From positions 14,248,541 through 14,312,540 of the forward strand of contig NC_091355.1 in assembly GCF_038502225.1 (NCBI RefSeq): a stretch of 64,000 bases of DNA, in the 5' to 3' direction. Both the position numbers and the translations under genes were made by a program. The notes beneath the pieces were generated by a model. It had not been told where the DNA came from, searched no databases, and saw only the letters and a list, made by a program, of their open reading frames with translations. This DNA is from Cherax quadricarinatus. Lineage: Eukaryota > Arthropoda > Malacostraca > Decapoda > Parastacidae. This document shows, in pieces, positions 34,187 through 58,810 of the stretch; positions within the stretch are counted from its first letter, which is position 1; each line of letters opens with the position of its first letter.

Positions 34187-34790
34187 TAGAAGATAGAGGT
34201 ATGGGTGTGTGTGGGAAACAAGCAGGTTGCAACACTAGGGTTGGAAACAGTAAATGTATAAAAGGCATTCAGCATGAAGTTATAAAGACAATAGATCAGG
34301 TCAGCAAACAAAGGGGGACAGCAGAGGGCAGCAAGGGACTAGCTCCCTTAAGGTTTACTATACTAATAGCAGGAGTGTAAGAAATAAGATAGATGAGCTA
34401 AGATTAATTGCAAGTGCAGAAAACATAGATATTATTGCTATAACAGAGACCTGGCTCGATCTGAAAGATAGAGAGATGTCCTCTGAATATCACATACAAG
34501 GCTATAAATTATTCCACACTGACAGGGTCAACAGGAAGGGTGGTGGAGTAGCGATGCATGTCAGAGACAATTTAAATTGTTGTGTTAGGCAAGATATAAA
34601 ATTAGAAGCGTCAGCCACTGAATCTGTTTGGTTACAGCTTCTCGAGGGCCGAGAAAAACTAATTTTGGGTGTGATTTACAGGGTTCCAAATCTTGATAGG
34701 GAGTGCAGTAAACTTCTATGGGACGAAATTCGTAAGGCATCTACATACGAAAATGAAGATTGAGACACTTATGCAGCATATGGGAATCTT

Positions 34791-34841
34791 TATTCAGGAA
34801 ACGTTTCGCCACACAGTGGCTTCATCAGTCCAATACAAAGA
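34791..34841 (-). ncRNA. Hammerhead-like ribozyme motif, consensus core
   Basis: Minus strand: stem I strand CTTTGTATTGGA, box CTGATGA (34822-34828), stem II GCCAC-TGT-GTGGC, GAAACGTT (34800-34807), and stem I strand TCCTGAATAAAG. All conserved core bases match. Confidence 0.7.
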
Positions 34842-35013
34842 GGTAGGCGTAAGGAGAGGAGGAGAATGAGGTAATCAGTCCCTCAACCTGGAGTCGATGT
34901 GTTCAGTCCATCAATCTTGTAGAATGTACATTCTACAAGATTGATGGACTGAACACATCGACTCCAGGTTGAGGGACTGATTACCTCATTCTCCTCCTCT
35001 CCTTACGCCTACC

Positions 35014-35068
35014 TCTTTGTATTGGACTGATGAAGTCACTGTGTGGCGAAACGTTTCCTGAATAAAGA
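35014..35068 (+). ncRNA. Hammerhead-like ribozyme motif, consensus core
   Basis: TCTTTGTATTGGA (stem I), CTGATGA (35027-35033), GTCAC-TGT-GTGGC (one G-T wobble against the sister arm), GAAACGTT (35048-35055), TCCTGAATAAAGA (stem I). GGA pairs with TCC, and after a small internal loop TCTTTGTA pairs with the AATAAAGA side. Confidence 0.7.
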
Positions 35069-36796
35069 TTCCCATATGCTGCATAAGTGTCTCAATCTTC
35101 AACTTGTCGGTTTTTCAAACCATTCATCACTACATACGAAAATGTTGTGCTAATGGGAGATTTCAACTGTAGACAGATTGACTGGAGCAATTTGACAGGA
35201 AATTTAGAGTCAGGTGACTTTCTTGATACGATCCAAGATTGTTTTTTAAAACAGTTTGTGACAGAGCCAACTAGGGGAAATAACCTCCTTGACTTGGTTC
35301 TTGCCAGTAGGGAAACACTAATTAATAATCTTGAGGTTAATGATGAGCTTGGGGAAAGTGATCACAAATCACTCAGTTTTAATATATCATGGAATTCCCC
35401 TAATAATGGCAATCAAGTCTCCGTCCCTGACTTTCGCTTGGCTGATTTCATAGGACTGAAAAATTACTTAGGTGGGCTGAACTGGAATGACCTGACTAAG
35501 GGTCAGGTAGGTGGTGATGGTTGCCGATATGACGCTTTTCAGGGCATAATTCTAGCTGCTCAGTCAAATTATGTTCCAAATATGGAAATCAGATCAAACA
35601 AAAATGATCCTAAATGGATGATTGGTCAAAAGAGAGGTATATATAGGCAAATCAAAAGAGGAGAGGGGCAATTAAGAAATCGATATATTCAGTTAAAGAG
35701 AGAAATAAAAAAGGGAATTAGAAAAGCAAAGAGAGATTATGAGGTTAAAGTTGCAAGAGAATCGAAGACTAACCCAAAAGGATTCTTTCAGGTATACAGA
35801 AGTAAGATCAGGGACAAGATAGGCCCACTTAAAAGTTCCTCGGGTCAGCTCACTGACAGTGATAAGGAAATGTGTAGAATTTTTAACACATACTTCCTCT
35901 CAGTCTTTACACAGGAGGATACCAGCGATATTCCAGAAATGATAAATTATGTAGAACAGAACGATAATAAACTGTGCACGATTAGGGTCACAAGTGACAT
36001 GGTCCTTAGGCAAATAGATAAATTAAAACCTAACAAATCCCCAGGCCCTGATGAACTGTATGCAAGGGTTCTAAAGGAATGTAAAGAGGAGCTTAGCAAA
36101 CCTTTGGCTAGTTTTTTCAACATATCACTACAAACTGGCATTGTGCCAGATAAGTAGAAAATGGCAAATGTAATACCTATTTTCAAAGCAGGTGACAGGT
36201 CCTTAGCTTCGAACTATAGACCAATAAGCCTAACCTCCATAGTGGGAAAATTTATGGAATCAATAATTGCCGAGGCAGTTCGTAGCCACCTTGAAAAGCA
36301 TAAATTAATCAACGAATCTCAGCATGGTTTTACAAAGGGGCGTTCCTGCCTTACGAATTTATTAACTTTTTTCACTAAGGTATTTGAGGAGGTAGATCAT
36401 GGTAATGAATATGATATTGTGTATATGGACTTCAGTAAGGCTTTTGACAGGGTCCCACATCAGAGACTATTGAGGAAAATTAAGGCACATGGAATAGGAG
36501 GAGAAATTTTTTCCTGGATAGAGGCATGGTTGACAAATAGGCAGCAGAGTGTTTGCATAAATGGGGAGAAATCAGAGTGGGGAAGCGTCACGAGCGGTGT
36601 TCCACAGGGGTCAGCGTCGGGCTCCCTGCTGTTCACAATCTACATAAACGACATAGATGAGGGCATAAAAAGCGACATCAGCAAGTTTGCCGATGACACC
36701 AAAATAGGCCGTCGAATTCATTCTGACGAGGACATTAGAGCACTCCAGGAAGATTTGAATAGACTGATGCAGTGGTCGGAGAAGTGGCAGATGCAG

Positions 36797-36871
36797 ACTT
36801 TGTCAATGGTCCAAGTCGGACCGAAACGTCGTCGTAAGCTTCTGTCTTTTATGTGCGGGTTATTTGTGTAA
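36797..36871 (+). mobile_element. Insertion of a second-family hammerhead arm in CR1 ORF2
   Basis: AATGGTCCAAGTCGGACC hairpin followed by GAAACGTC (36823-36830), GTCGTAAGCTTC and ATGTGCGGGTTATTTGTG. It replaces roughly 20 bp of ORF2. Related copies are at 11279, 11868 and 48151. Confidence 0.7.
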
Positions 36872-37724
36872 AGTTCTAAATGTTTGACAGGACAATAACC
36901 ATGCCACATATAATCTAAATAATGTAGATCTTAATATTACGGATTGCGAAAAAGATTTAGGAGTTCTGGTTAGCAGTAATCAGAAACCAAGACAACAGTG
37001 CATAAGTGTTCGCAATAAAGCTAATAGAATCCTTGGCTTCATATCAAGAAGCATAAATAATAGGAGTCCTCAGGTTGTTCTTCAACTCTATACATCCTTG
37101 GTTAGGCCTCATTTAGATTATGCTGCACAGTTTTGGTAACCGCATTACAGAATGGATATAAATGCTATGGAAAATGTACAAAGGAGGATAACAAAGTTGA
37201 TCCCATGTATCAGAAACCTTCCCTATGAGGATAGACTAAGGGCCCTGAATCTGCACTCTCTAGAAAGACGTAGAATTAGGGGGGATATGATTGAGGTGTA
37301 TAAATGGAAGACAGGAATAAATAAAGGGGATGTAAATAGTGTGCTGAAAATATCTAGCCTAGACAGGACTCACAGCAATGGTTTTAAGTTGGAAAAATTC
37401 AGATTCAGGAAGGATATAGGAAAGTACTGGTTTGGTAATAGAGTTGTGGATGAGTGGAACAAACTCCCAAGTACAGTTATAGAGGCCAGAACGGTGTGTA
37501 GCTTTAAAAATAGGTTGGATAAATACATGAGTGGATGTGGGTGGGTGTGAGTTGGACCTGATAGCTTGTGCTACCAGGTAGGTTGCCGTGTTCCTCCCTT
37601 AAGTCAATGTGACCTGACCTGACTAGGTTGGGTGCATTGGCTTAAGCCGGTAGGAGACTTGGACCTGCCTCGCATGGGCCAGTAGGCCTTCTGCAGTGTT
37701 CCTTCGTTCTTATGTTCTTAGAAT

Positions 37725-38006
37725 TATTCTTTTCCTCACTAAAAGGAAATGAAATAATTAGAATTAGCAATTGAAACTGATGTGTAAAATACATCACTCC
37801 AATGATACTCTACGATCAGTTAATGTACACTCACACTGTAATAGTACGTTTTTATTCAGTGTTCAGGTCAGCATGACTCCTGAGAACAATGATAATTCAG
37901 TGGGAATGCTGAATATATCAGTGTTGTCGCTCCTGGACTCCAGTATGAGTATTGTTCCAGACCAGCATATATACGTAATAAGTACGTAATAAATACGTAA
38001 TAAAAT
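37725..38006. other. Unassigned DNA
   Basis: No gene seen; short TACGTAATAA repeats at 37973-38004. Confidence 0.5.
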
Positions 38007-38461
38007 GTAGGTTAGTAGACAACAACCGCCCAGGGAGGTACTACCGTTCTGCCGAGTGTAAAACGGAATCCTGTAATTGTTTTACATGATGGTAGGATTG
38101 CTGGTGTCCTTTTTTCTGTCTCATAAACATGCAAGATTTCAGGTACGTCTTGCTACTTCTACTTACACTTAGGTCACACTACACATACATGTACAAGCAT
38201 ATATATACACACACACCCCTCTGGGTTTTCTTCTATTTTCTTTCTAGTTCTTATTCTTGTTTATTTCCTCTTACCTCCATGGGGAAGTGGAACAGAATTC
38301 TTCCTCCGTAAGCCATGCGTGCTGTAAGAGGCGACTAAAATGCCGGGAGCAAGGGGCTAGTAACCTTTTGTCCTGTATATATTACTAAATGTAAAAGGAG
38401 AAACTTTCGTTTTTCCTTTTGGGCCACCCCGCCTCGGTGGGATACGGCCGGTGTGTTGAAA

Positions 38462-38463
<2 letters not shown>
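38007..38463 (+). mobile_element. About 450-bp non-coding retroelement sharing the RTE 3' end
   Basis: Starts GTAGGTTAGTAGAC, passes GAGGCGACTAAAATGCC, and ends GGCCACCCCGCCTCGGTGGG then ATACGGCCGGTGTG, the same terminus as the RTE LINE, followed by TA repeat. A second, diverged copy is at 61806-62147. Probably a SINE-like partner using RTE machinery (inference). Confidence 0.7.
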
Positions 38464-38556
<93 letters not shown>

Positions 38557-38575
38557 ATTATATATATATATATAT
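38464..38575. repeat. TA microsatellite with TGTGTG breaks
   Basis: Three TA blocks separated by ATGTGTGTGTATT units. Confidence 0.9.
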
Positions 38576-38781
38576 TATATTTTTTGTGAATGTTTGGCCA
38601 ATGTATTTTGTCTTTAAATAAAACATACTTGAAATATAGGGGGTGGTAGGAGAAAATTCTCAAACAGCTTCAAGGAGAACCTTGAGTTTTCCCTGAAGCA
38701 AGTTTATTCTTTTCTCTGAGGATGAGGGTCCCCATGACAGTTCTAGAGGTGGTACCTCCCTATATTTTATATATATATATA

Positions 38782-39164
38782 TGTCGTGCCGAATAGGCAG
38801 AACTTGCGATCTTGGCTTAAATAGCAACGCTCATCTTGCCATATAGGACAAGTGAAAATTTGTGTATGCAGTAATTTCGCAAAAATCATTCTGAACCTAA
38901 CGAAAAAAATATATTTCACTGTGTTTGTTTAGTATTAAATTATTGTAAACAAATCTAAAATATATTTAGTTGGATTAGGCTAAAATAAATTGTTCTTGTT
39001 ATAATAAGGTTAGGTAAGTTTTCTAAGATTCTTTTGGTGCAAAATTAAAAAAATTTTCATTAACATTAATGAAAAAAATATATCTTTAAACGTATAAGAG
39101 AAAATTATAGAAAGGACTTAATTTTAAATGAGTTCTTGCTAATTGACCAGTTTTACATATTCGG

Positions 39165-39171
<7 letters not shown>
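38782..39171 (+). mobile_element. MITE, full copy (390 bp)
   Basis: Ends TGTCGTGCCGAATAGGCAGA and TTTACATATTCGGCACGGCA, within TA repeat on both sides. Confidence 0.92.
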
Positions 39172-39210
<39 letters not shown>

Positions 39211-39228
39211 GTATCTATATATATATAC

Positions 39229-39313
<85 letters not shown>
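39172..39313. repeat. TA then GT compound microsatellite
   Basis: TA blocks (39172-39243) followed by about 35 GT units. Confidence 0.95.
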
Positions 39314-39317
<4 letters not shown>

Positions 39318-39433
39318 GTATTGAATAGGTAAACTTGCCGAATAAGGCAAGCGAAAATCTGTGTATGCAATAATTTAGCAAAAAGCATTCTAAACCTAAC
39401 GAAAAAAATATATTTCATTGTGTTTATTATATA
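39314..39433 (+). mobile_element. MITE fragment with internal deletion
   Basis: Left end TGTCGTATTGAATAGGTAAA is joined directly to CTTGCCGAATAAGGCAAG, losing about 37 bp. It breaks off after CATTGTGTTTATTATATAA, close to where the fragment at 41206 ends. Confidence 0.8.
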
Positions 39434-39439
39434 ATACGC

Positions 39440-39525
39440 GCCAAGTAATGATATGAATGATATAGCAAGGTTTAAGCTACCACATGCTTGCCTGCTTGTA
39501 GTTGCAAGGGTCGAATCTCCGCTCC
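39440..39525 (+). mobile_element. Possible tRNA-like SINE head
   Basis: ATAGCAAGGTTTAAGCTAC resembles an A box and GGGTCGAATCTCC a B box about 35 bp later. Weak and only one copy. Confidence 0.3.
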
Positions 39526-39787
39526 TTGCTCTTTTGTGCAGGGAGGCACAACACAGCTAAAAGTGAGCTATAAAATTAATTCGATACAATTACATACAAG
39601 ACAATGAGTTACACAAGTTAACATAACCATCTTAAATTGTATGAGAAGCTCACAAGGTTGTTAGATCAGTGCCAAGAGTTATGTTGCCCATGAGAGTGTC
39701 AGATGCTAAACTGCACTAAGATGTGCAAGACTGGTATACAATACCGACAAGATGAAAGTTAAGACACTTGTGCAACATCTGGTTATC

Positions 39788-39836
39788 TTTATTGTAGACG
39801 TTTCGCCAACCAGTGGCTTTATCAATACAGGCACTG
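39788..39836 (-). ncRNA. Hammerhead-like ribozyme motif
   Basis: Box TTGATAA (U3-A8), stem II GCCA-CTGGT-TGGC, GAAACGTC, i.e. a GUC cleavage triplet. The start of stem I, TGTA, pairs with TACA. Confidence 0.6.
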
Positions 39837-40126
39837 CAACTTCATGGTATCTTGATTCAGAGGACATCTACATGACCTTCTTCACGACTTCTACAACTAA
39901 CCCATCAATTTGGGAAGGACCTACTTCCACTGGGGAATCCCGCCTACCAGTGACTATGCCCTCGTCTGCTACACGTCCCTCTTCACTGACGCCTATATAA
40001 GCGCCAGTCTCCTTACCTGTGCTTCAGAATCTCTACAACCATGGTGCTGTAAACACCACCTCTAAGGCTGAGGGACTGATTACCTCATCTTTTGTATATA
40101 GTTCTTCTGTTTCCTATTTATGTCCA

Positions 40127-40176
40127 AGAATCTGTATTGATAAAGCCACTGGTTGGCGAAACGTCTACAATAAAGA
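40127..40176 (+). ncRNA. Hammerhead-like ribozyme motif
   Basis: TTGATAA (40137-40143), stem II GCCA-CTGGT-TGGC, GAAACGTC (40158-40165), then TACAATAAAGAT. Confidence 0.6.
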
Positions 40177-40217
40177 TAACCAGATGTTGCACAAGTGTCT
40201 TAACTTGCACTAAGATG

Positions 40218-41160
40218 ACTACGAGGGAGACGGTTCACCTTTTTTACTCTTTTTCTTTCAAGTCTAACAAAGACTTTACCAAGATCTATGAATTCTCACT
40301 CCCAAAGGGAGCATTCAGTTTTCTCAGAAATGACACAAAACAAAATCAATGAACTTACACAATGCTGGCAGAGGTAAATTCGTATAGACTAAGACAACGT
40401 ACAGACTGACAGACAGGAAAGTCTCTTCCTGGGCAGCGACTAAGCCAAATCTGGGCTGAAGCAACACTGGCCTGCGAGTTACAGGATTCGCTTGCCATGG
40501 GATCGAGATCCATCCGTTTTGTGAATAGTCCATAACTTACTAGAGGACTATACTAAGTCTATACAAAATAATAATTAATAATCACCCAACTATTACCGAG
40601 ACAATGTCCTATGTAAAACTGAGATCAGTGCACAGACAACCCATGCAAAACAAACCACAATGATCTATAGGCATTTGAAATATTAAAATAATATTTGAAC
40701 ACCTTGCCCTCTATACAAGCTTCTATCCCAAGCTGTGCAGCCAAAGTTCCACACTCTACAAAAATCCACACTGCACTTTCTTGCGACTGACGTCGAAACT
40801 TACAAAATTGCTGCCAAAACAAGGCTGAAAAGTGATTAAGTCCAACAGCACAGCTGGAGACTATTCCAACAACCCACACAAAGTGTCAGACATCGTGTGC
40901 ATGTTTACTATTGTCTGTGTAAGAGGCCTCCTCCCGCTTTAACTAATATGGAGAGGCATTCTCTCTATTTCTCTCGCTCGCTCCAGCTGGCAAACCGCTG
41001 GCTGTACACACGTAAGCTTTGAGCAAGGAGATACCCAGCCTGGAAAAAAAACAGATTCCTTTGACATAATACTCTCGGACTAGGTGGCGAGTAGCTTGAA
41101 GAATTGAAAACAAGCAGTTTGATGTTTTACATGACTCCAAATTTCCTCAACTTAATAAAC
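40218..41160. other. Unassigned DNA
   Basis: No gene recognised. Confidence 0.5.
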
Positions 41161-41205
41161 GTATATATACGTAATAAAATATATATATACATATATATAT
41201 ATACA

Positions 41206-41361
41206 TGTCGTACTGAATAGATAAACTTGCGATTATGGCTTAAATAACGCTCTTCTTGTCGAATAAGGCACGCGAAAATTTGTGTATGTAATAATTTCGC
41301 AAAAATCATTCTGAACCTAACGAAAAAAAATATATTTCATTGTGTTTGTTTATTATATAAT
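41206..41361 (+). mobile_element. MITE 5' fragment
   Basis: Starts TGTCGTACTGAATAGATAAA; stops after CATTGTGTTTGTTTATTATA. The right terminal repeat is missing. Confidence 0.8.
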
Positions 41362-41365
41362 ACGC

Positions 41366-41403
41366 ATCCACGAACGAGGGATTTTGAGCAAATAACAATA
41401 CTG
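41366..41403 (-). mobile_element. SINE 3' tail fragment
   Basis: CCACGAACGAGGGATTTTG then AACAATACTGC matches the 3' end of the SINE at 2629-2680. Confidence 0.55.
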
Positions 41404-41973: not shown

Positions 41974-41999
41974 CCCCCGGAACTCTCTCCAGGTAAACT

Positions 42000-42683
42000 G
42001 CCACTAGCCGGGTATCGAACTCCTGATACATTAGCACGCCTCTCGAGAAGCCCGTCATTATTAAAAAAACATAACACTCATGTGTCACTTATCATCAAAG
42101 CACATTGTTAAAATGCTCCGATAATGTGATGTATAATACATAACATACAGTCATTAGGGAAGTAATCACTTGCGAAGCGCTGGGGTTGGTGGATTGGGTG
42201 CTTGCAGGTGGATGACGGGGCCGGGTATTGGTTTGTAGTTGGTGGCTTGTGTTGGATGGAGGGAAAAAGGGATGGGTTACGTGGAGGAGGGGTTGGAGTG
42301 GAGATGCCGGAGGGACAGGCAATGGCTTGGAGGGACTGGAGGAGTGTTAGAACTGGGAGGGACGGACGATGAGAGGGGGGTGGTAGGAGTGGAGGGGAGG
42401 TGCGGTCCTGGAGTATGGTTGGAGGAGAGGTGAGGCCTTGGGATGAGGGTAGAGGGAAGGAGCGGTGAGGAGGGGAAGTGCGGTCCTGGGATGAATTTGT
42501 AAGGAGGGGAGGTGTGGGTAGGCACAGGGACACAACACAACTCCAGGCACCATTATCAACACCAGTAAGAGTGCCTCCGTCCTTCCTCAAGTGAAAACAT
42601 CAGCCTCTTGCTGTATTCCTCTTTGTGTTTATTCTCTTGTCGTCTCTTTGATGAAGGTGATGTATACGCCGGCTTCAACCCTC
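42000..42683. other. G-rich unassigned DNA
   Basis: 42280-42540 is strongly purine-rich (GGAGGGG-type) on the plus strand. Minus-strand frames over it are Pro/Ser low complexity and not called. Confidence 0.55.
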
Positions 42684-45600
42684 ACACTCCCACTGCAACT
42701 TGCATGTCTGCTTCACACTCCCACTGCAACTTGCATGTCTGCTTCACACTCCCACTGCAACTTGCATGTCTGCTTCACACTCCCACTGCAACTTGCATGT
42801 CTGCTTTACACTCCCACTGCAACTTGCATGTCTTGTTCACACTCCCACTGCAACTTGCATGTCTTGTTCACACTCCCACTGCAACTTGCATGTCTGTTTC
42901 ACACTCCCACTGCAACTTGCATGTCTGCTTCACACTCCCACTGCAACTTGCATGTCTGCTTCACACTCCCACTGCAACTTGCATGTCTGCTTCACACTCC
43001 CACTGCAACTTGCATGTCTGCTTCACACTCCCACTGCAACTTGCATGTCTGCTTCACACTCCCACTGCAACTTGCATGTCTGCTTCACACTCCCACTGCA
43101 ACTTGCATGTCTGCTTCACACTCCCACTGCAACTTGCATGTCTGCTTCACACTCCCACTGCAACTTGCATGTCTGCTTCACACTCCCACTGCAACTTGCA
43201 TGTCTGCTTCACACTCCCACTGCAACTTGCATGTCTGCTTCACACTCCCACTGCAACTTGCATGTCTGCTTCACACTCCCACTGCAACTTGCATGTCTGC
43301 TTCACACTCCCACTGCAACTTGCATGTCTGCTTCACACTCCCACTGCAACTTGCATGTCTGCTTCACACTCCCACTGCAACTTGCATGTCTGCTTCACAC
43401 TCCCACTGCAACTTGCATGTCTGCTTCACACTCCCACTGCAACTTGCATGTCTGCTTCACACTCCCACTGCAACTTGCATGTCTGCTTCACACTCCCACT
43501 GCAACTTGCATGTCTGCTTCACACTCCCACTGCAACTTGCATGTCTGCTTCACACTCCCACTGCAACTTGCATGTCTGCTTCACACTCCCACTGCAACTT
43601 GCATGTCTGCTTCACACTCCCACTGCAACTTGCATGTCTGCTTCACACTCCCACTGCAACTTGCATGTCTGCTTCACACTCCCACTGCAACTTGCATGTC
43701 TGCTTCACACTCCCACTGCAACTTGCATGTCTGCTTCACACTCCCACTGCAACTTGCATGTCTGCTTCACACTCCCACTGCAACTTGCATGTCTGCTTCA
43801 CACTCCCACTGCAACTTGCATGTCTGCTTCACACTCCCACTGCAACTTGCATGTCTGCTTCACACTCCCACTGCAACTTGCATGTCTGCTTCACACTCCC
43901 ACTGCAACTTGCATGTCTGCTTCACACTCCCACTGCAACTTGCATGTCTGCTTCACACTCCCACTGCAACTTGCATGTCTGCTTCACACTCCCACTGCAA
44001 CTTGCATGTCTGCTTCACACTCCCACTGCAACTTGCATGTCTGCTTCACACTCCCACTGCAACTTGCATGTCTGCTTCACACTCCCACTGCAACTTGCAT
44101 GTCTGCTTCACACTCCCACTGCAACTTGCATGTCTGCTTCACACTCCCACTGCAACTTGCATGTCTGCTTCACACTCCCACTGCAACTTGCATGTCTGCT
44201 TCACACTCCCACTGCAACTTGCATGTCTGCTTCACACTCCCACTGCAACTTGCATGTCTGCTTCACACTCCCACTGCAACTTGCATGTCTGCTTCACACT
44301 CCCACTGCAACTTGCATGTCTGCTTCACACTCCCACTGCAACTTGCATGTCTGCTTCACACTCCCACTGCAACTTGCATGTCTGCTTCACACTCCCACTG
44401 CAACTTGCATGTCTGCTTCACACTCCCACTGCAACTTGCATGTCTGCTTCACACTCCCACTGCAACTTGCATGTCTGCTTCACACTCCCACTGCAACTTG
44501 CATGTCTGCTTCACACTCCCACTGCAACTTGCATGTCTGCTTCACACTCCCACTGCAACTTGCATGTCTGCTTCACACTCCCACTGCAACTTGCATGTCT
44601 GCTTCACACTCCCACTGCAACTTGCATGTCTGCTTCACACTCCCACTGCAACTTGCATGTCTGCTTCACACTCCCACTGCAACTTGCATGTCTGCTTCAC
44701 ACTCCCACTGCAACTTGCATGTCTGCTTCACACTCCCACTGCAACTTGCATGTCTGCTTCACACTCCCACTGCAACTTGCATGTCTGCTTCACACTCCCA
44801 CTGCAACTTGCATGTCTGCTTCACACTCCCACTGCAACTTGCATGTCTGCTTCACACTCCCACTGCAACTTGCATGTCTGCTTCACACTCCCACTGCAAC
44901 TTGCATGTCTGCTTCACACTCCCACTGCAACTTGCATGTCTGCTTCACACTCCCACTGCAACTTGCATGTCTGCTTCACACTCCCACTGCAACTTGCATG
45001 TCTGCTTCACACTCCCACTGCAACTTGCATGTCTGCTGATCACTCCCACTGCAACTTGCATGTCTGCTTCACACTCCCACTGCAACTTGCATGTCTGCTT
45101 CACACTCCCACTGCAACTTGCATGTCTGCTTCACACTCCCACTGCAACTTGCATGTCTGCTTCACACTCCCACTGCAACTTGCATGTCTGCTTCACACTC
45201 CCACTGCAACTTGCATGTCTGCTTCACACTCCCACTGCAACTTGCATGTCTGCTTCACACTCCCACTGCAACTTGCATGTCTGCTTCACACTCCCACTGC
45301 AACTTGCATGTCTGCTTCACACTCCCACTGCAACTTGCATGTCTGCTTCACACTCCCACTGCAACTTGCATGTCTGCTTCACACTCCCACTGCAACTTGC
45401 ATGTCTGCTTCACACTCCCACTGCAACTTGCATGTCTGCTTCACACTCCCACTGCAACTTGCATGTCTGCTTCACACTCCCACTGCAACTTGCATGTCTG
45501 CTTCACACTCCCACTGCAACTTGCATGTCTGCTTCACACTCCCACTGCAACTTGCATGTCTGCTTCACACTCCCACTGCAACTTGCATGTCTGCTTCACA

Positions 45601-46985
45601 CTCCCACTGCAACTTGCATGTCTGCTTCACACTCCCACTGCAACTTGCATGTCTGCTTCACACTCCCACTGCAACTTGCATGTCTGCTTCACACTCCCAC
45701 TGCAACTTGCATGTCTGCTTCACACTCCCACTGCAACTTGCATGTCTGCTTCACACTCCCACTGCAACTTGCATGTCTGCTTCACACTCCCACTGCAACT
45801 TGCATGTCTGCTTCACACTCCCACTGCAACTTGCATGTCTGCTGATCACTCCCACTGCAACTTGCATGTCTGCTTCACACTCCCACTGCAACTTGCATGT
45901 CTGCTTCACACTCCCACTGCAACTTGCATGTCTGCTTCACACTCCCACTGCAACTTGCATGTCTGCTTCACACTCCCACTGCAACTTGCATGTCTGCTTC
46001 ACACTCCCACTGCAACTTGCATGTCTGCTTCACACTCCCACTGCAACTTGCATGTCTGCTTCACACTCCCACTGCAACTTGCATGTCTGCTTCACACTCC
46101 CACTGCAACTTGCATGTCTGCTTCACACTCCCACTGCAACTTGCATGTCTGCTTCACACTCCCACTGCAACTTGCATGTCTGCTTCACACTCCCACTGCA
46201 ACTTGCATGTCTGCTGATCACTCCCACTGCAACTTGCATGTCTGCTTCACACTCCCACTGCAACTTGCATGTCTGCTTCACACTCCCACTGCAACTTGCA
46301 TGTCTGCTTCACACTCCCACTGCAACTTGCATGTCTGCTTCACACTCCCACTGCAACTTGCATGTCTGCTTCACACTCCCACTGCAACTTGCATGTCTGC
46401 TTCACACTCCCACTGCAACTTGCATGTCTGCTTCACACTCCCACTGCAACTTGCATGTCTGCTTCACACTCCCACTGCAACTTGCATGTCTGCTGATCAC
46501 TCCCACTGCAACTTGCATGTCTGCTGATCACTCCCACTGCAACTTGCATGTCTGCTGATCACTCCCACTGCAACTTGCATGTCTGCTGATCACTCCCACT
46601 GCAACTTGCATGTCTGCTGATCACTCCCACTGCAACTTGCATGTCTGCTGATCACTCCCACTGCAACTTGCATGTCTGCTGATCACTCCCACTGCAACTT
46701 GCATGTCTGCTGATCACTCCCACTGCAACTTGCATGTCTGCTGATCACTCCCACTGCAACTTGCATGTCTGCTGATCACTCCCACTGCAACTTGCATGTC
46801 TGCTGATCACTCCCACTGCAACTTGCATGTCTGCTGATCACTCCCACTGCAACTTGCATGTCTGCTGATCACTCCCACTGCAACTTGCGTGTCTGTTTCA
46901 CTCTCCCACTGCAACTTGCATGTCTGCTTCACACTCCCACTGCAACTTGCATGTCTGCTTCACACTCCCACTGCAACTTGCATGT
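42684..46985. repeat. 31-bp satellite array, about 139 copies
   Basis: Unit: CTTCACACTCCCACTGCAAC then TTGCATGTCTG. Copies are almost all identical. Exceptions: TCTTGTTCAC twice near 42832-42870, TTTACAC and TTTCACA at the left edge, and a CTGATCAC variant that is single at 45037, 45843 and 46215, then fixed in 13 consecutive copies from 46494 to 46866. Because 31 is not a multiple of three, all forward frames stay open (up to 1316 codons). No promoter or unique flank supports a gene. Confidence 0.97.
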
Positions 46986-48150: not shown

Positions 48151-48298
48151 TATACACAACCCGCAAGTAGGAGAATGAGACTTATGACAACATTTCTATC
48201 TGACTTGGACCATTAATTAGTGTGGCTAGTTAATGGTCCAAGTCAGACCGAAAAGTTCTCCTAAGTTTCAGCCTCCTACGTGCGGGTTATTTGTGTAT
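48151..48298. mobile_element. Foldback of the second hammerhead-like family
   Basis: Left arm ATACACAACCCGCAAGTAGG and right arm CCTACGTGCGGGTTATTTG are inverted; centre TTAATTAGTGTGGCTAGTTAA. The right arm has GGTCCAAGTCAGACC then GAAAAGTT, a damaged second box. Confidence 0.7.
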
Positions 48299-49171: not shown

Positions 49172-49316
49172 CATTATTTTTATTATAATCTTGGGGGAGC
49201 GCTAAACTCATTGGATTATACAGCGCATGTGGGGGGGGGGTGAGGGAACCGGAGCACAGATACAATTCCCTAGATCAAGAGCCCCTCACCAGCATCAAGA
49301 AGCCTCCCTTGAGGGG
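49172..49316 (-). mobile_element. SINE with (AAT)n tail, full copy
   Basis: ATTATTTTTATTATAATC, GGAGCGCTAAACTCATTGG, ATTATACAGCGC and GAGCCCCTCACCAGCATC match the family. Confidence 0.82.
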
Positions 49317-50558: not shown

Positions 50559-50570
50559 GGGACTAATGAT
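50559..50570. repeat. PLE target-site duplication, left
   Basis: GGGACTAATGAT, repeated exactly at 54515-54526. Confidence 0.93.
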
Positions 50571-50650
50571 TGTAATAAAGTTGGTAGAATTACCGACAAT
50601 ATGTAAAGTAAAAGGACACAAGTGCAACTAATGTGACATTTTATTGTGGC

Positions 50651-50679
50651 AACGTTTCGCTCTCCAGGAGCTTTATCAA
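50651..50679 (-). ncRNA. Hammerhead-like motif in the PLE left arm
   Basis: Minus strand TTGATAA, GCTC-CTGGA-GAGC, GAAACGTT; the adjoining GGC and GCC pair as the start of stem I. Confidence 0.6.
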
Positions 50680-50949
50680 GCCATTACAAACAATACATGG
50701 ACACAGAGGGTATATATAGGCTCAGAGTGAGGTGCAGTACTAGTTGTAGTAGTAGTAGTAGTGACAAAAGTTGTAGTAGTAGTAATACAATATTTAGAGC
50801 AATTAATTCGTACATGAGTAAAAGGATATAAAAGCTATTACTTGGGTAACATAAAAATAGGTTGGACAAATATAGACTGGATAGAGGCAGCCTGTTTCAG
50901 TGTTCACTCTCTGTAATGTGCTTTGTGTAGTATAACAGGAGAGACTATG

Positions 50950-51720
50950 TGATGGCAAGATTTACTGTTTTCAGGAGGATTCTTGCTAAGACTTCAGAGA
51001 TGAAGACCATTCATCTACATAAGACTTCAGAGATGGTGAAGCTGCCGTTGTTTTGTTTAATTGTATTCGAAACAGCGATCAGTGCTGATTCGAGGCACTT
51101 GCGTCTTCGGAAATTAGTTTCTTTGATCACTAATTGGGCGTCTCTGAATTTCATGAGATGATTGGTGGAATTTCGGTGTTGTACACAGGCGTTGTTCAAG
51201 TTATCGTTCCTACATGCGTAAATGTGTTCATTGAGGCGGGTGTCGAGGTTTCTTGCTGTTTCACCTACGTAAATCTTGTCACAGCCTCCACAGGGTATAG
51301 TGTAAACTCCTGTGTTGACTGGTTCGTGGTGCTTTGATTTTGTACTGGTTAGATCCTTTATTGAAGTGCTAGAAGCGATGGCAACTCTGGTGTTAGCTTG
51401 TGAAAGTACTTCAGAAACGTTCAGTGCAACCTGGCTGTTGGGAAGAATTGTAACTTTGTTGGGAGTGGTGTTGGTGCATGGAGAATTAATGATCTGAAGA
51501 GCTCTTTTCTTGCAGTCTTTGATGAAAAAGGAAGGAAAATGTAACTCAGTGAATGTTTGGTGAATGTATGTACATTCCTCGTCAAGAAACTCAGGACTAC
51601 AAATTCGGTATGCTCTTAGGAAAAACCCGATGATGATGCCTCTTTTGGTCTTGGTATCTTGACTGGAATAGAAGTGTGTGAGATCATTTTTATTGGTAGG
51701 TTTCCAATAAACTTGAAATC
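50950..51720 (-). pseudogene. Inverted copy of PLE endonuclease region
   Basis: The minus strand encodes the C-terminal half of the PLE protein: FQVYWKPTNKNDLTHFYSSQ, then CTYIHQTFTELHFPSFF, the GIY-YIG block GVYTIPCGGCDKIYVGETAR, RLNEH and FRDAQLVIKETNFRRRKC. The frame is largely open, unlike a random inverted piece. It includes about 30 bp of extra duplicated sequence at 50990-51032 (AAGACTTCAGAGATG repeated). It begins after the YVDD motif, so it has no RT. Inverted, 5'-truncated partner copies are a known feature of Penelope insertions. Identity to the right-hand copy is high but not complete, so the two have diverged since insertion or were different to begin with. Confidence 0.88.
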
Positions 51721-53138
51721 TAGTACCTCTGCACTAACAGTCGATGGAAGGAAATGGGACGTGAATCCCTGATAAACAACTTATCGTCACGCACCTTAAC
51801 CGACTACGAGAAACAAGCACTGAGTCTGGGACTCAAATTTACCACCAACATACGCAAACCTATCAACTCAATCTAGTTACCAGGAACCATAGACACAGTG
51901 ACAGCAACTTCCAGAAGGGTTATATACAGGGCCTTCTCACTGCAGCTTTATGTGAACCTTCTTCTAATCTTCCTAGACGATACATCACTGCCCTTAAGGA
52001 CCTCGCCAACGACCCCAACATTATCGTCACCACCGCCGACAAAGGAGGTGGAGTCGTCATACTCAACACCAGTGACTACAACACTAAAATGATGGACCTT
52101 TTGAATGATAAATCTACATACGAACCCATCAGCACTCAACAGTGGGAGACGCTCACCAAAGATTTTCTATACAAAACTAGACAAATACTCAAATGTACTA
52201 GAGAAGGGAAGAAACTTCTGTGCTTGTTACCAATCAACCCTAAACCAGCACACATGTATGGTTTACCCAAGACCCATAAACACAATATTCCTCTCAGACC
52301 AATCACGTCAGGAATAGGCAGTGCTCCACACAAACTAGCCGGAGTTCTTGCCAAACATCTTTCCTGCCTTCTGGGGAGTATCAGCCCCGCTCATCTTAAA
52401 CACTCAGGCGACCTTCTCAACCGCATCCGTAACCTCTCCATCCGTAACAAGAAACTAAGCAGTTTGGACGTGACTTCCCTCTTCACAAAAGTACCTACCA
52501 CAAAAGCCATCGATCAGGACCTTAATCTTCCTCTACCTCCCGGAGATTTTGTTGACTTGATTGAACTCTGTGTTAATTTCAACTGTTTTTCTTTCAATAA
52601 CAAGCTCTACAAACAAACCTACGGCATGGGAATGGGGTCCCCCATCAGTGCCGTCCTAGCCAACTTATACATGGAACACCTAGAGTCCGAACACTTCGCC
52701 AACATCATCCCTTCAAGCGTCACTTGGTAACGTTACGTGGACGACGTCCTCGTAATAACTCCCAAACGTTTTGATGTACGGAATCTTCAGGCAAGGCTCA
52801 ACGCAGTTGAACCGGCGATCCAGTTTACACTAGAAGAGTCCAATGACAAGCTACCTTTCCTCGACGTCCTCATTCACAAAGTAGACAACAACCTAAGATT
52901 TCAAGTTTATCGGAAACCCACTAATAAAAATGATCTCACACACTTCTATTCCAGTCAAGATACCAAGACCAAAAGAGGCATCATCATCGGGTTTTTCCTA
53001 AGAGCATACCGAATTTGTAGTCCTGAGTTTCTTGACAAGGAATGTACATACATTCACCAAACATTCACTGAGCTGAACATCAAAATGGTATACAATACCG
53101 ACAGGTTGTTAGGTAAGACACATATGCAACAGTTAGAC

Positions 53139-53195
53139 AACTTTATTCCGAAACGTTTCGCCTACACAGTAGGCTTCTTCAGTCGAATACAGAAA
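53139..53195 (-). ncRNA. Hammerhead-like ribozyme motif, consensus core
   Basis: Minus strand CTGAAGA (53176-53182; N7 is A, which the consensus allows), stem II GCCTA-CTGTG-TAGGC, GAAACGTT, stem I CGA/TCG. Confidence 0.68.
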
Positions 53196-53530
53196 GTAGG
53201 CAGGAACAGTAGAGATGTGAAGACGATGTAATCAGTCCATCACCCTTAAAGTCGTAGAATTTGAGGTTGTCAGTCCCTCGGCCTGGAGAAGTTCAGTTCC
53301 ATAGTCAGGAACTATCTCAAGGAACAGTAGAGATGTGAAGACGATGTAATCAGTCCATCACCCTTAAAGTCGTAGAATTTGAGGTTGTCAGTCCCTCGGC
53401 CTGGAGAAGTTCAGTTCCTGACTATGGAACTGAACTTCTCCAGGCCGAGGGACTGACAACCTCAAATTCTACGACTTTAAGGGTGATGGACTGATTACAT
53501 CGTCTTCACATCTCTACTGTTCCTGCCTAC

Positions 53531-53588
53531 TTTCTGTATTCGACTGAAGAAGCCTACTGTATAGGCGAAACGTTTCGGAATAAAGTTG
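53531..53588 (+). ncRNA. Hammerhead-like ribozyme motif, consensus core
   Basis: CTGAAGA (53544-53550), GCCTA-CTGTA-TAGGC, GAAACGTT (53567-53574), then TCGGAATAAAG; CGA pairs with TCG and CTTT with AAAG. Confidence 0.68.
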
Positions 53589-54429
53589 TCTAACTGTTGC
53601 ATATGTGTCTTACCTAACATTCACTGAGCTACATTTTCCTTCCTTTTTCATCAAAGACTGCAAGAAAAGAGCTCTTCAGATCATTAATTCTCCACGCACC
53701 AACACTACTCCCAACAAAGTTATAATTCTTCCCAACAGCCAGGTTGCACTGAACGTTTCTAAAGTACTTTCACAAGCTAACACCAGAGTCGCCATTGCTT
53801 CTAGCACTTCAATAAAGGATCTAACCAGGACAGAATCAAAGCAACACGAACCAGTCAACGCAGGAGTTTTCACTATACCCTGTGGAGGCTGTGACAAGAT
53901 TTACGTAGGTGAAACAGCAAGAAACCTCGACACCCGCCTCAATGAACACATTTGCGCACGTAAGAACGATAACCTGAACAACGCCTGTGTACAACACCGA
54001 AATTCCACCAATCATCTCATGAAATTCAGAGACGCCCAATTAGTGATAGTGATCAAAGAAACTAATTTCCTCAGACGCAAGTGCCTCGAATCAGCACTGT
54101 TCGCTGTTTCGAATACAGTTAAACAAAACAACGGCAGCTTCACCATCTCTGAAGTCTTAGCAAGAATCCTCCTGAAAACAGTAAATCCTGCCATCACATA
54201 GTCTCTCCTGTTATACTACACAAAGCACATTACAGAGAGTGAACACTGAAACAGGCTGCCTCTATCCAGTCTATATTTGTCCAACCTATTTTTATGTTAC
54301 CCAAGTAATAGCTTTTATATCTACCATATTGTATTACTACTACTACTACAACTTTTGTCACTACTACTACTACTACTACTAGTATTGCACCTCACTCTGA
54401 GCCTATATATACCCTCTGTGTCCATGTAT

Positions 54430-54485
54430 TGTTTGTAATGGCTTGATAAAGCTCCTGGAGAGCGAAACGTTGCCACAATAAAATG
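54430..54485 (+). ncRNA. Hammerhead-like motif in the PLE right end
   Basis: TTGATAA (54443-54449), GCTC-CTGGA-GAGC, GAAACGTT (54464-54471). Stem I TGGC/GCCA, then TTTGTA opposite AATAAA. Confidence 0.65.
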
Positions 54486-54514
54486 ACACATTAGTTGCAC
54501 TTGTGTCCTTTTGC

Positions 54515-54526
54515 GGGACTAATGAT
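54515..54526. repeat. PLE target-site duplication, right
   Basis: GGGACTAATGAT, identical to 50559-50570. Confidence 0.93.
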
Positions 54527-54835
54527 CATGCAATATACAGTACTTTAAAGGAATCCTTGAAAGGTAATGGACTTGAGCTGTAAAAAATCGTTGCACTTAG
54601 CACCAATAAATCCTCTATCATGACCTAGGTGGATATTGGGTACTAGTTAGATGTTTGTGTGCGATTGCCTGGAAATTTGTGTCTCATGCTGCAACCCAGT
54701 GTCTTGTCTAGCAATCTGGATTTTATAAGAGACAAATTCTTCTTCCACATGAGATTTTTAAGTCAAAGCTGCGTAACCGGCTGATTATTAAGTGTATCAG
54801 AGCTGTCTGACGTTTTAAATATGGATTGAAAAGGC
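54527..54835. other. Unassigned DNA between two PLEs
   Basis: No gene recognised. Confidence 0.5.
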
Positions 54836-54869
54836 ATGGTAAATATTACCATGACTACAAACTATGACT

Positions 54870-55108
54870 TAAGGTACGCCTCTGTCCTCCACAGAGACTC
54901 CACGGGGCATTTGATGAACTGGGATGAGGCACGACTCGTTGTCACTGAACCAGACCTCAGACGCCGACGGTGTCTAGAAGTCTCGCTGATCACCGTCACT
55001 GACACAATAGAACGTAACTCTGGAAACCACAAAATTTCTAAAATATTAGCATACATGATAGTCAAGCAAGCAAAGGACCACCAATCCAGCAACACAGGAG
55101 TCACATGA
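54870..55108 (+). pseudogene. PLE lineage 3, C-terminus of the endonuclease region
   Basis: Plus frame RYASVLHRDSTGHLMNWDEA, RLVVTEPDLRRRRCLEVSL, RNSGNHKISKILAYMIVKQ and a stop at 55106-55108. It aligns with CVQHRNSTNHLMKFRDAQLV ... NNGSFTISEVLARILLK of the 50.6-54.5 kb element, but at clearly lower similarity, so it is a separate lineage. The RT and the GIY-YIG motif are missing. No stop within the surviving 80 codons. It is followed, as expected, by a terminal region with a hammerhead-like motif and a CTTGTCGGTATT tail. Confidence 0.85.
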
Positions 55109-55207
55109 TCTCATTGTCTACCCGTCCTCATCCCAATATAGCATTCTCCAGGTCATCAAGTGTTACTCACGCCTCACTCTCCGCCTATATATACTGTCTT
55201 TCAACCT

Positions 55208-55261
55208 CTGTATGTTAGAAGTGATCAAGGTCCCATGACCGAAACGTTTTCTAATAAATAT
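55208..55261 (+). ncRNA. Hammerhead-like motif with G3-C8 core
   Basis: Stem I TTAGAA/TTCTAA (6 bp), box GTGATCA (55221-55227), stem II GGTC-CCAT-GACC, GAAACGTT (55241-55248). Confidence 0.6.
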
Positions 55262-55319
55262 GTCCTAATGTTTGCTTACGTGTTTTTTCTAAACCAACTT
55301 GTCGGTATTTATAACCAAG

Positions 55320-56466
55320 ATTTATACCACTACAAACTATACCTAAGGTTGTTAAGGCTTAGGTTGCTGATAGTGTCTTCGACTCGATCAATATCGAAGA
55401 AACAATTACAACAATGAACAGCCACACACACTGAGGTAGATAGAGTTGTTTGGGATTTAACAGATATAGAGCAATCATCAGTACACTAGCGAGTAAGAAC
55501 AATACATTATATCGTATGTAAAGTTTGTATCTACTAGTCTTGGCTACTTTCCTCGGTGTTCGATGCAAAATGAAGCGCCTTTTATATCTTTTAGGGAAAA
55601 AGCTAGCGCGTTTTTGAAGGTTCAGTGGCAACTCTGCTTCTGCAAGACTCCGCAACATACTTAGGATAGTGTGATTAGTAAACAATATTTAATGCCACTA
55701 TTTATAAAAAAATTCATTGTCTAGTGTAACTAAGATTATCATAGTCCAACTTCTGTTAACTTATAAATGAAACTCACCTTCCCATGATGGTAGAGGTATG
55801 GTAGGCTCACTAGCTAGGTGGTGCTTGGGATCCCAGGTGATGATGCGACCTCCAGCACCACCTGGGGTCCAACCCTGGAGGTGCTGCTGCCCAGACGGCG
55901 CCGTTATCTTCACTCATCGACACTTTTGGCCGTTGTTGTTACCCACTCTTATCGACTTATCTAAAAGTGCTTTTGACATTATTGACACTTTTCGACAATT
56001 TGTTTCTGACGTATATCGACACTTACCGTCTCTTTTCGACACTTATCAACGTTCTATTATCGATAGTCGACACATCGACATTTATCGTCACTGTTATCGA
56101 CATTGTGTTATCAACGTTCTGTTATCCAAACTGTAAATGACGATTCTGTACTAATACTTTCCTCCCGTAAGCTTGGCTCTGCCACGCCTTAATTTTATTC
56201 GCCATTGGGACTAACTCTTCTTGATCGTTAATTGTTGGTTTAAAGCCTGTAAACTAGACAAGGGTCATTAAGGCTGCATGTCACCTATACACTACCAGTC
56301 AAGAATACCGGGAACTATAGCAAATTCTTAAGAGTATATGCACTTAAAGGACGAAAACCTTTCGCTGTATATACTCATTGAAACGTCATGTATATATACA
56401 TATACGCCTCAGGGTGAATATACACAGCTACACGACTCAAGTTAAATATTCAGAGATACAAAATTC
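55320..56466. other. Unassigned DNA with a TCGACA-rich stretch
   Basis: 55915-56110 contains about nine TCGACA/TATCGAC motifs and one TATCGATA (56058-56065). No gene recognised. Confidence 0.5.
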
Positions 56467-56469
56467 TGA

Positions 56470-56557
<88 letters not shown>
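56470..56557. repeat. TA microsatellite
   Basis: About 44 TA units. Confidence 0.95.
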
Positions 56558-56562
<5 letters not shown>

Positions 56563-57754
56563 CAATGCTAGAATTGTATGCACGCCACTTTGTGTGTATA
56601 CACACTGATACACCCCTTAAAGTGAATATACCCTTGCCTGTTTATATACAATAGAGCGGCACAACGACCCTCGTTCAGTCCACTGACCGCCGCTTAACAC
56701 ACTGAGGACAACAGCTCAGTAAAGTTCTGCTTCAGAGCTCCGACGTTGTTCAGTGAACCACTCCACAAAACTGAGACCTGAGCATCTCTCTTGATACGAT
56801 TATTAGTATTATTCGTGCCAAGCATTAACATTCATGTATTCATAAACTCATCTACAGAATAAAATGTTACATGGAAAAGTGTCTGATGAGTTTGTGGTGG
56901 ATTGGAGGTCGATGTAATCCACAGGAGATTATTATTGTTACTGTCTGGATATTACGGAGTACTGTAAAAAACAATATTTATATAAAATAACGCTCCGTAT
57001 ATAATATTATTTTCCGTGTAGTACTGCATGCGGAAAGTGGACGTGTATTATTCCCTATAAGCGAAAGCGTTTTCTTCCTGTCAGTCAGGCAGTGGCCAGG
57101 ACATGAGCAGATGAGAGGTGTGTTTAGTTCAGTATCAGAGGGGTGGTCACGGGGTGAAGTCGTCATGTTTGGGCGATAGTTTGAGTAGGTAATTTTTTTT
57201 TTTAGTGTATGCTACAGGTGTTCGTGTTTAAGTACTCTCATGTTTATTTGTAAAGCCCTAGTATGCAGGGGCCTGTGTTCTGTAGAGTATTGACGTTTCC
57301 ACTGTAGGCTATGTAGCCTGCAGAAAGGATGGGAGGGGGGGGGGTGTCATGGAGCCTCCCTGTTCATAAATGTTCATTTATTTTGTTTAACTCATTAGTA
57401 GCAGTGTGCTAGTGAGTTAATGTGAACTGGAGTGTGGTGGCGTTTTTTTTTGGAGTAGATTGTAAGTTGTAAGTTACTATTATTATATTATATATATTTT
57501 TATATAGTCGAGTTTTTGTGTCCATCCTTATACAACGTTAATTATTTGCACTCATGCTTATATGCTGGCCCAAGGTTCGCTGTGTTTTCTGAGTAATTTA
57601 ATAACCTAACCTAGACAGCAGTGTGAGCAGCCTTTAGGAGCCAGGAATATTTTATTTAAGTTACGACATCAAATTCGTAACACTGGAGAACAGATACAAG
57701 TAATTAGATAGTTAATTGAGGTTAAAACGTGTCGACTACACTAGGATCACTATT
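56558..57754. other. Unassigned DNA, about 1.2 kb
   Basis: No gene recognised. Short poly(T) and poly(G) runs near 57191 and 57335. Confidence 0.5.
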
Positions 57755-57828
57755 TAGTCTAGGGATTCGATCCCTAGACATGAGTGACGAGAGTCGTGAC
57801 TAACCACTGGGCTATGGCTTAATGACCT
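57755..57828 (-). mobile_element. tRNA-like SINE head or tRNA pseudogene
   Basis: Minus strand A box TAGCCCAGTGGTTAGTCA (57797-57814) and B box GGGATCGAATCCC (57762-57774) with a CTAGGGAT/ATCCCTAG T-arm. Acceptor stem pairing is absent, so not a functional tRNA. Confidence 0.6.
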
Positions 57829-58104
57829 GCTTGAGTTTAGCGTTTCACCTAAATAATAATAAACATGAGGGTCATTAAGGCTGCATGACACCCGTTCACC
57901 AACAGCCAAGAATATTTTAATTCCTAAAATAAAGATTAAAGTAAACTCTTAATATTCATACACAGGATACATATACCTCTCGATGTGTGTAGCCTGTGTC
58001 CATGGATCAAGAGTCCCTCACCGGTCCCCTTGAGAGAAAAACTTGCAAATAACTCCTCCCACACAACCCAAAAATATTATTGTGACAGGATTTTCACTTT
58101 CACG

Positions 58105-58362
58105 TTGCTTAAGTGTGAGTGGAAGACTCTCACACTCACTTGTGAGAGGAAGACTCTCACACTCACTTGTGAGAATATTCCTTTCACACTCACTTTGCTT
58201 GTGAGTGAGAATATTCTTTGTACACTCACTTTACTTGTGAGTGAGAATATTCCTTTTACACTCACTTTACTTGTGAGTGAGAATATTCTTTGTACACTCG
58301 CTTTACTTGTGAGTGAGAATATTCTTTGTACACTCACTTTACTTGTGAGTGGAAGACTCTCA
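58105..58362. repeat. 36-bp repeat with internal inverted repeat
   Basis: Four to five copies of GTGAGTGAGAATATTCTTTG then TACACTCACTTTACTT (period 36), flanked by shorter GGAAGACTCTCACACTCACTT copies. Each unit contains GTGAGTG and CACTCAC, and GAATATTC is self-complementary. Both strands are open by periodicity. Confidence 0.88.
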
Positions 58363-58514
58363 CACACACAAAAGTGATGGTTTATATATTATATGAAAGG
58401 ATGGTAAGCTCTAGGTTTAGGCTCTTTGGATGCAAGTTTGCCAATATTCCAAAATAAAATAATACTCGTAAATAAATAGGTGACTTCCGTGTACTAATTT
58501 CAAAAAAAATTCAA

Positions 58515-58810
58515 AAACATTGGCATACATGATACTTAAGCAGCACCAACCCAACAACACAGGAGTCACGTGATTTCATCGTCTACCCTCGCCTCGCATG
58601 GGCCAGTAGGCCTTCTACAGTGTTCCTCCATTCTTATGTTCTTATGACATTCCTCAGGTCACGTGCGTCACATCTCACTCTCCGCCTATATATATAATGT
58701 CTTTCTACCTCTGTATGTTAGAAGTGATCAAGGTTCCAGGACCGAAACGTTTTCTAATAAATATGTTATAGTGTTTGCTTACGTGTCTTTCTAAACCAAC
58801 TAATTAGTTA
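58515..58810 (+). mobile_element. PLE lineage 3, 3' end fragment with nested CR1 tail
   Basis: ACAACACAGGAGTCACGTGA through CGCCTATATATATAATG to TCTTTCTAAACCAAC matches 55090-55300. A piece reading CCTCGCATGGGCCAGTAGGC through TTCTTATGTTCTTATG (58590-58648) is a CR1 3' tail lodged inside it. Confidence 0.8.
58721..58765 (+). ncRNA. Hammerhead-like motif with G3-C8 core
   Basis: Stem I TTAGAA/TTCTAA, GTGATCA (58734-58740), stem II GGTT-CCAG-GACC (one wobble), GAAACGTT (58744-58751). Confidence 0.6.

Follow-up and report, generated by a model that had tools for sequence, protein, structure and literature searches.

Penelope-like elements (PLEs) carry hammerhead ribozymes in their terminal repeats (pLTRs); these ribozymes, which lack helix III, occur in very many copies and fit a dimer model, were reportedly described by Lunse, Weinberg and Breaker in 2017. 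Here, a 64,000-nt stretch of the Cherax quadricarinatus genome (contig NC_091355.1, positions 14,248,541 to 14,312,540), referred to below as the window, was found to carry 14 copies of a minimal type I hammerhead-like core, which sits in the pLTRs of several co-resident PLE families. Stems I and II are part of this core but stem III is missing, and a single additional nucleotide separates A9 from stem II. The closest published systems are cited below from extracts of their text. PLE hammerheads without helix III are known (PMC7761336, PMC6155905), and according to the review extract they may self-cleave as dimers (PMC7761336). Compared by description only, the window motifs have in common with these reviewed hammerheads the pLTR location, the lack of helix III, the very many copies and the dimer model.

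Natural hammerheads with C3-G8 to U3-A8 covariation were published in 2011 (Perreault, PMC3088659), and they share Watson-Crick covariation at 3-8 with the window motifs. In contrast, G-C and A-U states go unmentioned in the extract of the hammerhead section of that paper, and here the states differ between PLE families of one genome. In the hammerhead of PAc (Poseidon, Anolis), C3G and G8C each abolish cleavage, and C3G/G8C partly restores it (PMC11167929, extract). PAc and the window motifs share a PLE carrier, stems I and II without III and a tail downstream of the ribozyme, and the C3-G8 pair of PAc is functional; as far as that extract goes, G3-C8 is a mutational state in PAc, whereas here it is that of a natural family, and here an AATAAA follows the motif. 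In Adineta vaga, PLE insertions have inverted pLTRs, an optional one-sided tail, target-site duplications (TSDs) and palindromes, and self-priming on an antisense template was proposed for the inverted arms (PMC3846280, extract).

We consider it very probable that the window motifs are minimal type I hammerhead-like ribozymes, that they belong to the pLTRs of several PLE families residing together in this genome, and that two copies most likely complete stem III. From 5′ to 3′, the core consists of a stem I strand, a seven-base box, one A, the stem II hairpin, GAA (TAA at 7331), ACGU, base 17 and the second stem I strand. The 14 copies are as follows (window coordinates; insertions A to D are described further below).

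5683 to 5732, plus strand: hammerhead-like copy, box TTGGTAA (U3-A8, G for A6), weak stem II
7321 to 7373, plus strand: degenerate copy, box CTGATGA, without stem I, TAAACGTT, without AATAAA
27351 to 27403, plus strand: hammerhead-like copy, box TTGACAA (U3-A8)
29578 to 29629, plus strand: hammerhead-like copy, box TTGACAA (U3-A8), compact foldback, left arm starting within the motif (by eye)
34786 to 34838, minus strand: hammerhead-like copy, box CTGATGA (C3-G8), left arm of insertion A
35017 to 35069, plus strand: hammerhead-like copy, box CTGATGA (C3-G8), right arm of insertion A, AATAAA 5 nt past the predicted cut
39783 to 39834, minus strand: hammerhead-like copy, box TTGATAA (U3-A8), left arm of insertion C
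40128 to 40179, plus strand: hammerhead-like copy, box TTGATAA (U3-A8), right arm of insertion C
50637 to 50689, minus strand: hammerhead-like copy, box TTGATAA (U3-A8), left arm of insertion D, TATATATA upstream
53138 to 53192, minus strand: hammerhead-like copy, box CTGAAGA (C3-G8), left arm of insertion B
53534 to 53588, plus strand: hammerhead-like copy, box CTGAAGA (C3-G8), right arm of insertion B
54433 to 54485, plus strand: hammerhead-like copy, box TTGATAA (U3-A8), right arm of insertion D, 3′ of a GIY-YIG open reading frame (ORF), TATATATA from 54404
55212 to 55262, plus strand: hammerhead-like copy, box GTGATCA (G3-C8), six-pair stem I extending into AATAAA, PLE tail next, TATATATA from 55186
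58715 to 58765, plus strand: hammerhead-like copy, box GTGATCA (G3-C8), box from 58724

An earlier note on this DNA had listed the same 14 sites, and all of them are present in the sequence. Most of its coordinates hold; the minus-strand boxes had been given by their low ends (the true 5′ ends are 34828, 39825, 50679 and 53182), and the box placed at 58734 belongs to a real motif and starts at 58724. The extra A after the box was absent from its description. U4, G5, A6, A9, GAA and A15.1-U16.1 are all kept at 12 of the 14 sites, the exceptions being 5692 (G6) and 7331 (U12); the latter copy is a wreck, with T for G12, a shifted stem II and neither stem I nor AATAAA. A covariance model gave scores of 47-73 bits for 14/14 sites, as it must by construction, having been built from the same sites, and it returned two further weak matches in the window (29563-29625, minus strand; 6529-6583, plus strand), both in compact foldbacks.

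A strict descriptor, which requires H at position 17, leaves positions 3 and 8 unconstrained and also permits the canonical spacing between A9 and stem II, was then considered. It matched 12 times in the window and not once in 100 first-order Markov surrogates of it, on which ground a chance origin of the motif was rejected. Over 314 kb, comprising the window and sampled stretches (designated L009, L010 and so on), it gave 25 matches, of which 24 have a Watson-Crick pair at 3-8 and 21 a stem I of at least three pairs.

At the genome scale (3.95 Gb searched), the core pattern TGANNAAG-N(9-13)-CGAAACGT, with positions 3 and 8 unconstrained, gave 104,545 + 104,997 = 209,542 exact matches, compared with 57 + 62 = 119 for the reversed pattern used as the control. 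Position 3 is Watson-Crick paired with position 8 in 196,464 of these matches (93.8%), as C-G in 121,688, U-A in 65,967, G-C in 8,746 and A-U in 63, the remaining 13,078 being unpaired and wobble states together; the hairpins of the 63 A-U matches are diverse, with no dominant family. The genome patterns fix UGA, the extra A and CGAAACGT, are therefore uninformative on those positions, and miss decayed copies. A longer pattern excludes U at 2.1 and 1.3 and leaves position 17 unconstrained. Among its first 100 listed matches, all located within the initial 3.2 Mb of a single contig and partly clustered as near-identical copies, 96 are Watson-Crick at 3-8 versus 42.9 expected from the margins (the rest are A-A, C-U, G-G and C-A), and 2.1-1.1 is paired in 98 (AU 76, CG 20, GU 2). 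Position 17 is U in 74 of these 100 matches, C in 21, A in 5 and G in none, matching the NUH rule.

Within the window, the 3-8 Watson-Crick pairing claimed by the earlier note is present at all 14 sites, in agreement with the genome-wide counts, and its statement that stem I, stem II and 3-8 keep their pairing across variants is borne out by double changes in 8 of 9 pairs. For the 14 copies (13 distinct), stems I and II and 3-8 are paired in 89.6% of 115 cells versus 63.6% after shuffling (0/500 shuffles as high), a slid-partner control gave 31-57% (maximum 57.1%), and the covariation score is 0.709 versus 0.236 (0/500 as high); the structure used here was derived from the same 14 sequences, and kinship inflates the covariation figures. 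Three of five covariation measures exceed all 500 shuffles, and RNAalifold recovers stems I and II from the window copies unaided. By sequence, the conserved features appear to match the needs of hammerhead chemistry, including an H at position 17 that would be superfluous for a simple hairpin.

The observations that weigh against the ribozyme interpretation concern the independence of the copies and the chemistry of the core. As to independence, eight of the 14 sites are the paired arms of only four insertions, which leaves at most 10 insertions in about six families by eye, and two covariation measures are unexceptional against the 500 shuffles (pairs with a double change, 33 as high; pair types, 126 as high). 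The first 100 G-C matches listed are nearly all of one hairpin type, so the G3-C8 state is probably of single origin. A tree of the flanks was built from 33 of 46 model matches (14/16 from the window, 16/27 and 3/3 from sampled stretches), with the upstream flanks blanked in four rows judged non-homologous. The 13 omitted matches are mostly weak and include L018 (TTGATCA, 3-8 unpaired), the L009 tandem-array matches (U-A) and L017 7422 (C-G). The 3-8 pair is Watson-Crick in 31 of these 33 copies; the model matches are biased to paired copies because this pair is part of the model. At least five changes of the 3-8 Watson-Crick state are seen on this tree, and two on a second tree lacking four rows (three long-branched, one with a blanked flank) that were selected after the first tree, showing that the sampled copies alone hold few independent 3-8 events.

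These low event counts, together with the single hairpin type of the listed G-C matches, would also be expected if a few young PLE families simply retained fixed sequences, 3-8 being free of selection and its pairing a frozen accident of their founders; descent and constraint account equally well for the near-absence of A-U. However, eight combinations of box and hairpin occur two or more times among the 100 listed matches, every one of them with a Watson-Crick pair at 3-8, and stems I and II covary between families too, so that shared descent as the sole explanation appears very unlikely. The earlier note had singled out 3-8 covariation across lineages as the striking part, an emphasis that finds no support in that form: U3-A8 had been published (extract of PMC3088659), C3 and G8 mutants of a PLE hammerhead had been assayed (extract of PMC11167929), and the flank trees hold two to five changes.

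As to chemistry, exactly one extra nucleotide separates A9 from stem II in 25/25 strict matches over the 314 kb, the canonical spacing occurring in 0/25. Stem III is absent in cis, AAACGT directly abutting position 17 with no loop at all 14 window sites. G at position 17 does occur, in an array at 5739-5946 of L009 and at 3896 of L010. The earlier note had called the motif a hammerhead and proposed Rfam covariance models with shuffles as the check; the shuffle controls came out in its favor, whereas the Rfam hammerhead models gave nothing in the window at the gathering score, no hammerhead family among 69 matches at E<=10, and no match in a 371-base stretch. A genome search with RF00008 returned 0, with only 68 of 515,276 candidates scored and the control scoring nowhere. 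Sub-threshold matches to Rfam microRNA models also fell on palindromes and TA repeats, and these matches were read as inverted-repeat artefacts. In single-copy folding, two of the three copies tried (U-A and G-C) give stems I and II as the minimum-energy structure, and the C-G copy adopts a competing structure; in co-folding, dimers other than the stem III dimer are preferred. For PAc, according to the extract of PMC11167929, no cleavage occurs without the protein, and ribozyme mutants leave in vitro insertion unaffected, cleavage being dispensable there.

Several of these points would suit a structured RNA element that does not cleave, whose stems and 3-8 pair would be kept for PLE protein binding or 3′-end formation, ribozyme activity being lost or vestigial. 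The extra nucleotide after A9, the lack of an Rfam hammerhead match in the window and an AATAAA near the motif in 28 of 33 copies over the window and sampled stretches (13 of 14 in the window, 3-5 nt 3′ of the predicted cut) all agree with such an element, as does PAc, whose ribozyme mutants still insert and for which RNA-seq gave no ends at the cut, as far as the extract of PMC11167929 goes. However, the absence of G at position 17 from the 100 listed copies, under a pattern that leaves this base free (the L009 array and L010 3896 lying elsewhere), is difficult to reconcile with it, and the retention of GAA in 13/14 and of the 3-8 pair in 14/14 window copies would be needless for a mere hairpin site. 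A non-cleaving element is thus rather unlikely in our view.

Returning to the hammerhead-like ribozyme, position 3 would pair with position 8 as C-G, U-A or G-C. The ACGU is self-complementary, so that two copies can share a stem III, and alone it makes none; a lone copy, being without stem III, should be a poor ribozyme. Stem III would instead be completed mutually by two copies, which could be pLTRs in tandem on a single transcript or could lie on separate RNAs, and an intermolecular stem III via ACGU is plausible by analogy with the dimer self-cleavage given in the review extract (PMC7761336). The predicted cut, after position 17 and 3-5 nt 5′ of AATAAA, would detach the poly(A) signal from the body of the RNA, and uncleaved read-through RNA would serve for insertion. 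Insertion A reaches about 44 and 74 nt beyond the predicted cuts, and therefore the RNAs inserted there would have been uncut at that site. Upstream of the boxes at 54443 and 55221, TATATATA starts at a distance of 39 and 35 nt, respectively, so that transcription may start near the motif.

A more elaborate proposal, which we regard as improbable, is that the poly(A) signal works together with the ribozyme as a single switch. Two pLTR copies would meet through ACGU, and the folded, dimerised ribozyme, with stem I ending just before AATAAA or extending into it, would cut 3-5 nt before the signal to give a non-polyadenylated RNA, whereas polyadenylated mRNA would come from a copy left unfolded; the additional nucleotide that follows A9 would perhaps alter the tolerance of the core, barring A-U at 3-8 and letting the pair drift among C-G, U-A and G-C. 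If so, the element would sort its transcripts into message and transposition intermediate.

The carriers of eight of the motifs, and the protein-coding fragments associated with them, are as follows.

34756 to 35129, plus strand: insertion A, palindromic pLTR pair, tail at the right end; 15-bp TSD CTACATACGAAAATG at 34741-34755 and 35130-35144
39724 to 40205, minus strand: insertion C, inverted pLTR pair, tail at the left end; 12-bp TSD TGCACTAAGATG at 39712 and 40206
50571 to 54514, minus strand: insertion D, PLE fragment (3.9 kb) with inverted ends, containing insertion B, tail at the left end; 12-bp TSD GGGACTAATGAT at 50559 and 54515
51014 to 51733, minus strand: GIY-YIG endonuclease fragment, PF01541, 25.9 bits, in the inverted arm of insertion D
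51765 to 52727, plus strand: reverse-transcriptase fragment, RVT_1, E 1.4e-5, 25.3 bits (below the Pfam cut-off of 29.6), inside insertion D
53075 to 53615, minus strand: insertion B, inverted pLTR pair nested within insertion D, tail at the left end; 15-bp TSD AACATTCACTGAGCT at 53060 and 53616
53584 to 54198, plus strand: GIY-YIG endonuclease fragment, PF01541, 22.8 bits (cut-off 22.6)

These insertions have the features of PLEs, with GIY-YIG above the cut-off in two fragments, pLTRs, a one-sided tail and a short TSD. In PLEs generally, the pLTRs may be direct or inverted and the tail is optional and 30-40 bp long. By eye, the tail of insertions A to D is a ..TTGTCGGTA..-like stretch at one end only. 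They share with the PLEs of Adineta vaga the inverted pLTRs, the tail on one of them, the TSD, the palindromes and TATATATA in the pLTR; in contrast, hammerheads, present in the window insertions, are unmentioned in the extract of PMC3846280. Viral relatives were rejected: a single pattern match in viral contigs lacks box and pLTR features by eye, and further searches gave none.

Five more inverted pairs lie in sampled stretches (L010, L012, L013, L017, L024), four with a tail at one end and one (L012) with a tail at neither. Compact foldbacks (29587, 6562, L018) left out, the nine inverted pairs examined by eye thus have a tail at exactly one end in eight, at neither in one and at both in none. 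Exact TSDs of 11-15 bp are found in seven of the nine (in the sampled pairs, 13 bp in L024, 11 bp in L010 and 11 bp in L012), and L017 and L013 share only 8 and 7 exact bases, respectively. One way to obtain such structures, instead of self-priming on an antisense template, would be for both target strands to prime cDNA, one at the tail site and the other at an inner site, the two cDNAs being joined head to head. The one-sided tails and TSDs fit this route, and the PLE protein in the extract of PMC11167929 cuts and extends both strands, with reverse transcription starting at two sites that bound the tail. However, the start of reverse transcription is alike on both strands there, perfect palindromes such as 34754-35101 equally fit self-priming, and 2151 of 20000 random flank pairs share an 11-mer, which makes short TSDs alone weak evidence. 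Two-strand priming may be a real contender, although we lean toward its not being the route.

Many of the matches listed on contig G000:C1 are minus/plus neighbours, tens to hundreds of bases apart, and from such neighbours among the matches listed, head-to-head pairs may be a common form of insertion. In a sampled stretch (L017 6800-7500), head-to-tail pLTRs were observed that flank a tail, and a further, incomplete copy of the motif is present there.

PLE hammerheads and natural U3-A8 covariation are already known. Less expected are the natural G3-C8 family, the near-absence of A3-U8 and the AATAAA 3-5 nt past the predicted cut; the G3-C8 family, the lack of A3-U8, the extra nucleotide after A9 and the adjacent poly(A) signal are unmentioned in the open-licence literature searched, outside which the primary PLE-hammerhead papers lie. 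With about 200,000 exact core copies whose states differ by family, a single genome offers a natural mutational experiment on 3-8, stem I, position 17 and the A9 insertion, in which the 3-8 pairing rule of a known kind of ribozyme can be read statistically. Two testable ideas, one on the role of the motif and the other on the mode of PLE insertion, arise from the poly(A) signal close to the motif and from the tails at one end only.

Some related arrangements were also observed. The L009 array at 5739-5946 (G000:C64:5400001-5410000) consists of 6.5 head-to-tail copies of a 32-bp unit, a bare hammerhead-like core with a TTGATAA box, a GCTC/GAGC stem II, GAAACGT and G at position 17, and it adjoins a TA repeat. 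At 4190-4230 of L018, a foldback is centred inside the box (TTGATCA), which leaves 3-8 unpaired. In the window, at 36800 (plus strand) and 11357 (minus strand), a stem-II-like hairpin GGTCCAAGTC(G/A)GACC is followed by GAAACGTCGTC, a proper box being absent upstream, and the hairpin at 36800 falls within an ORF (RVT_1) resembling that of a long interspersed nuclear element (LINE). A satellite of 31-bp units occupies 42522-46558 of the window; 140 of its copies are in register and match a 300-nt reference with an identity of >=60%.

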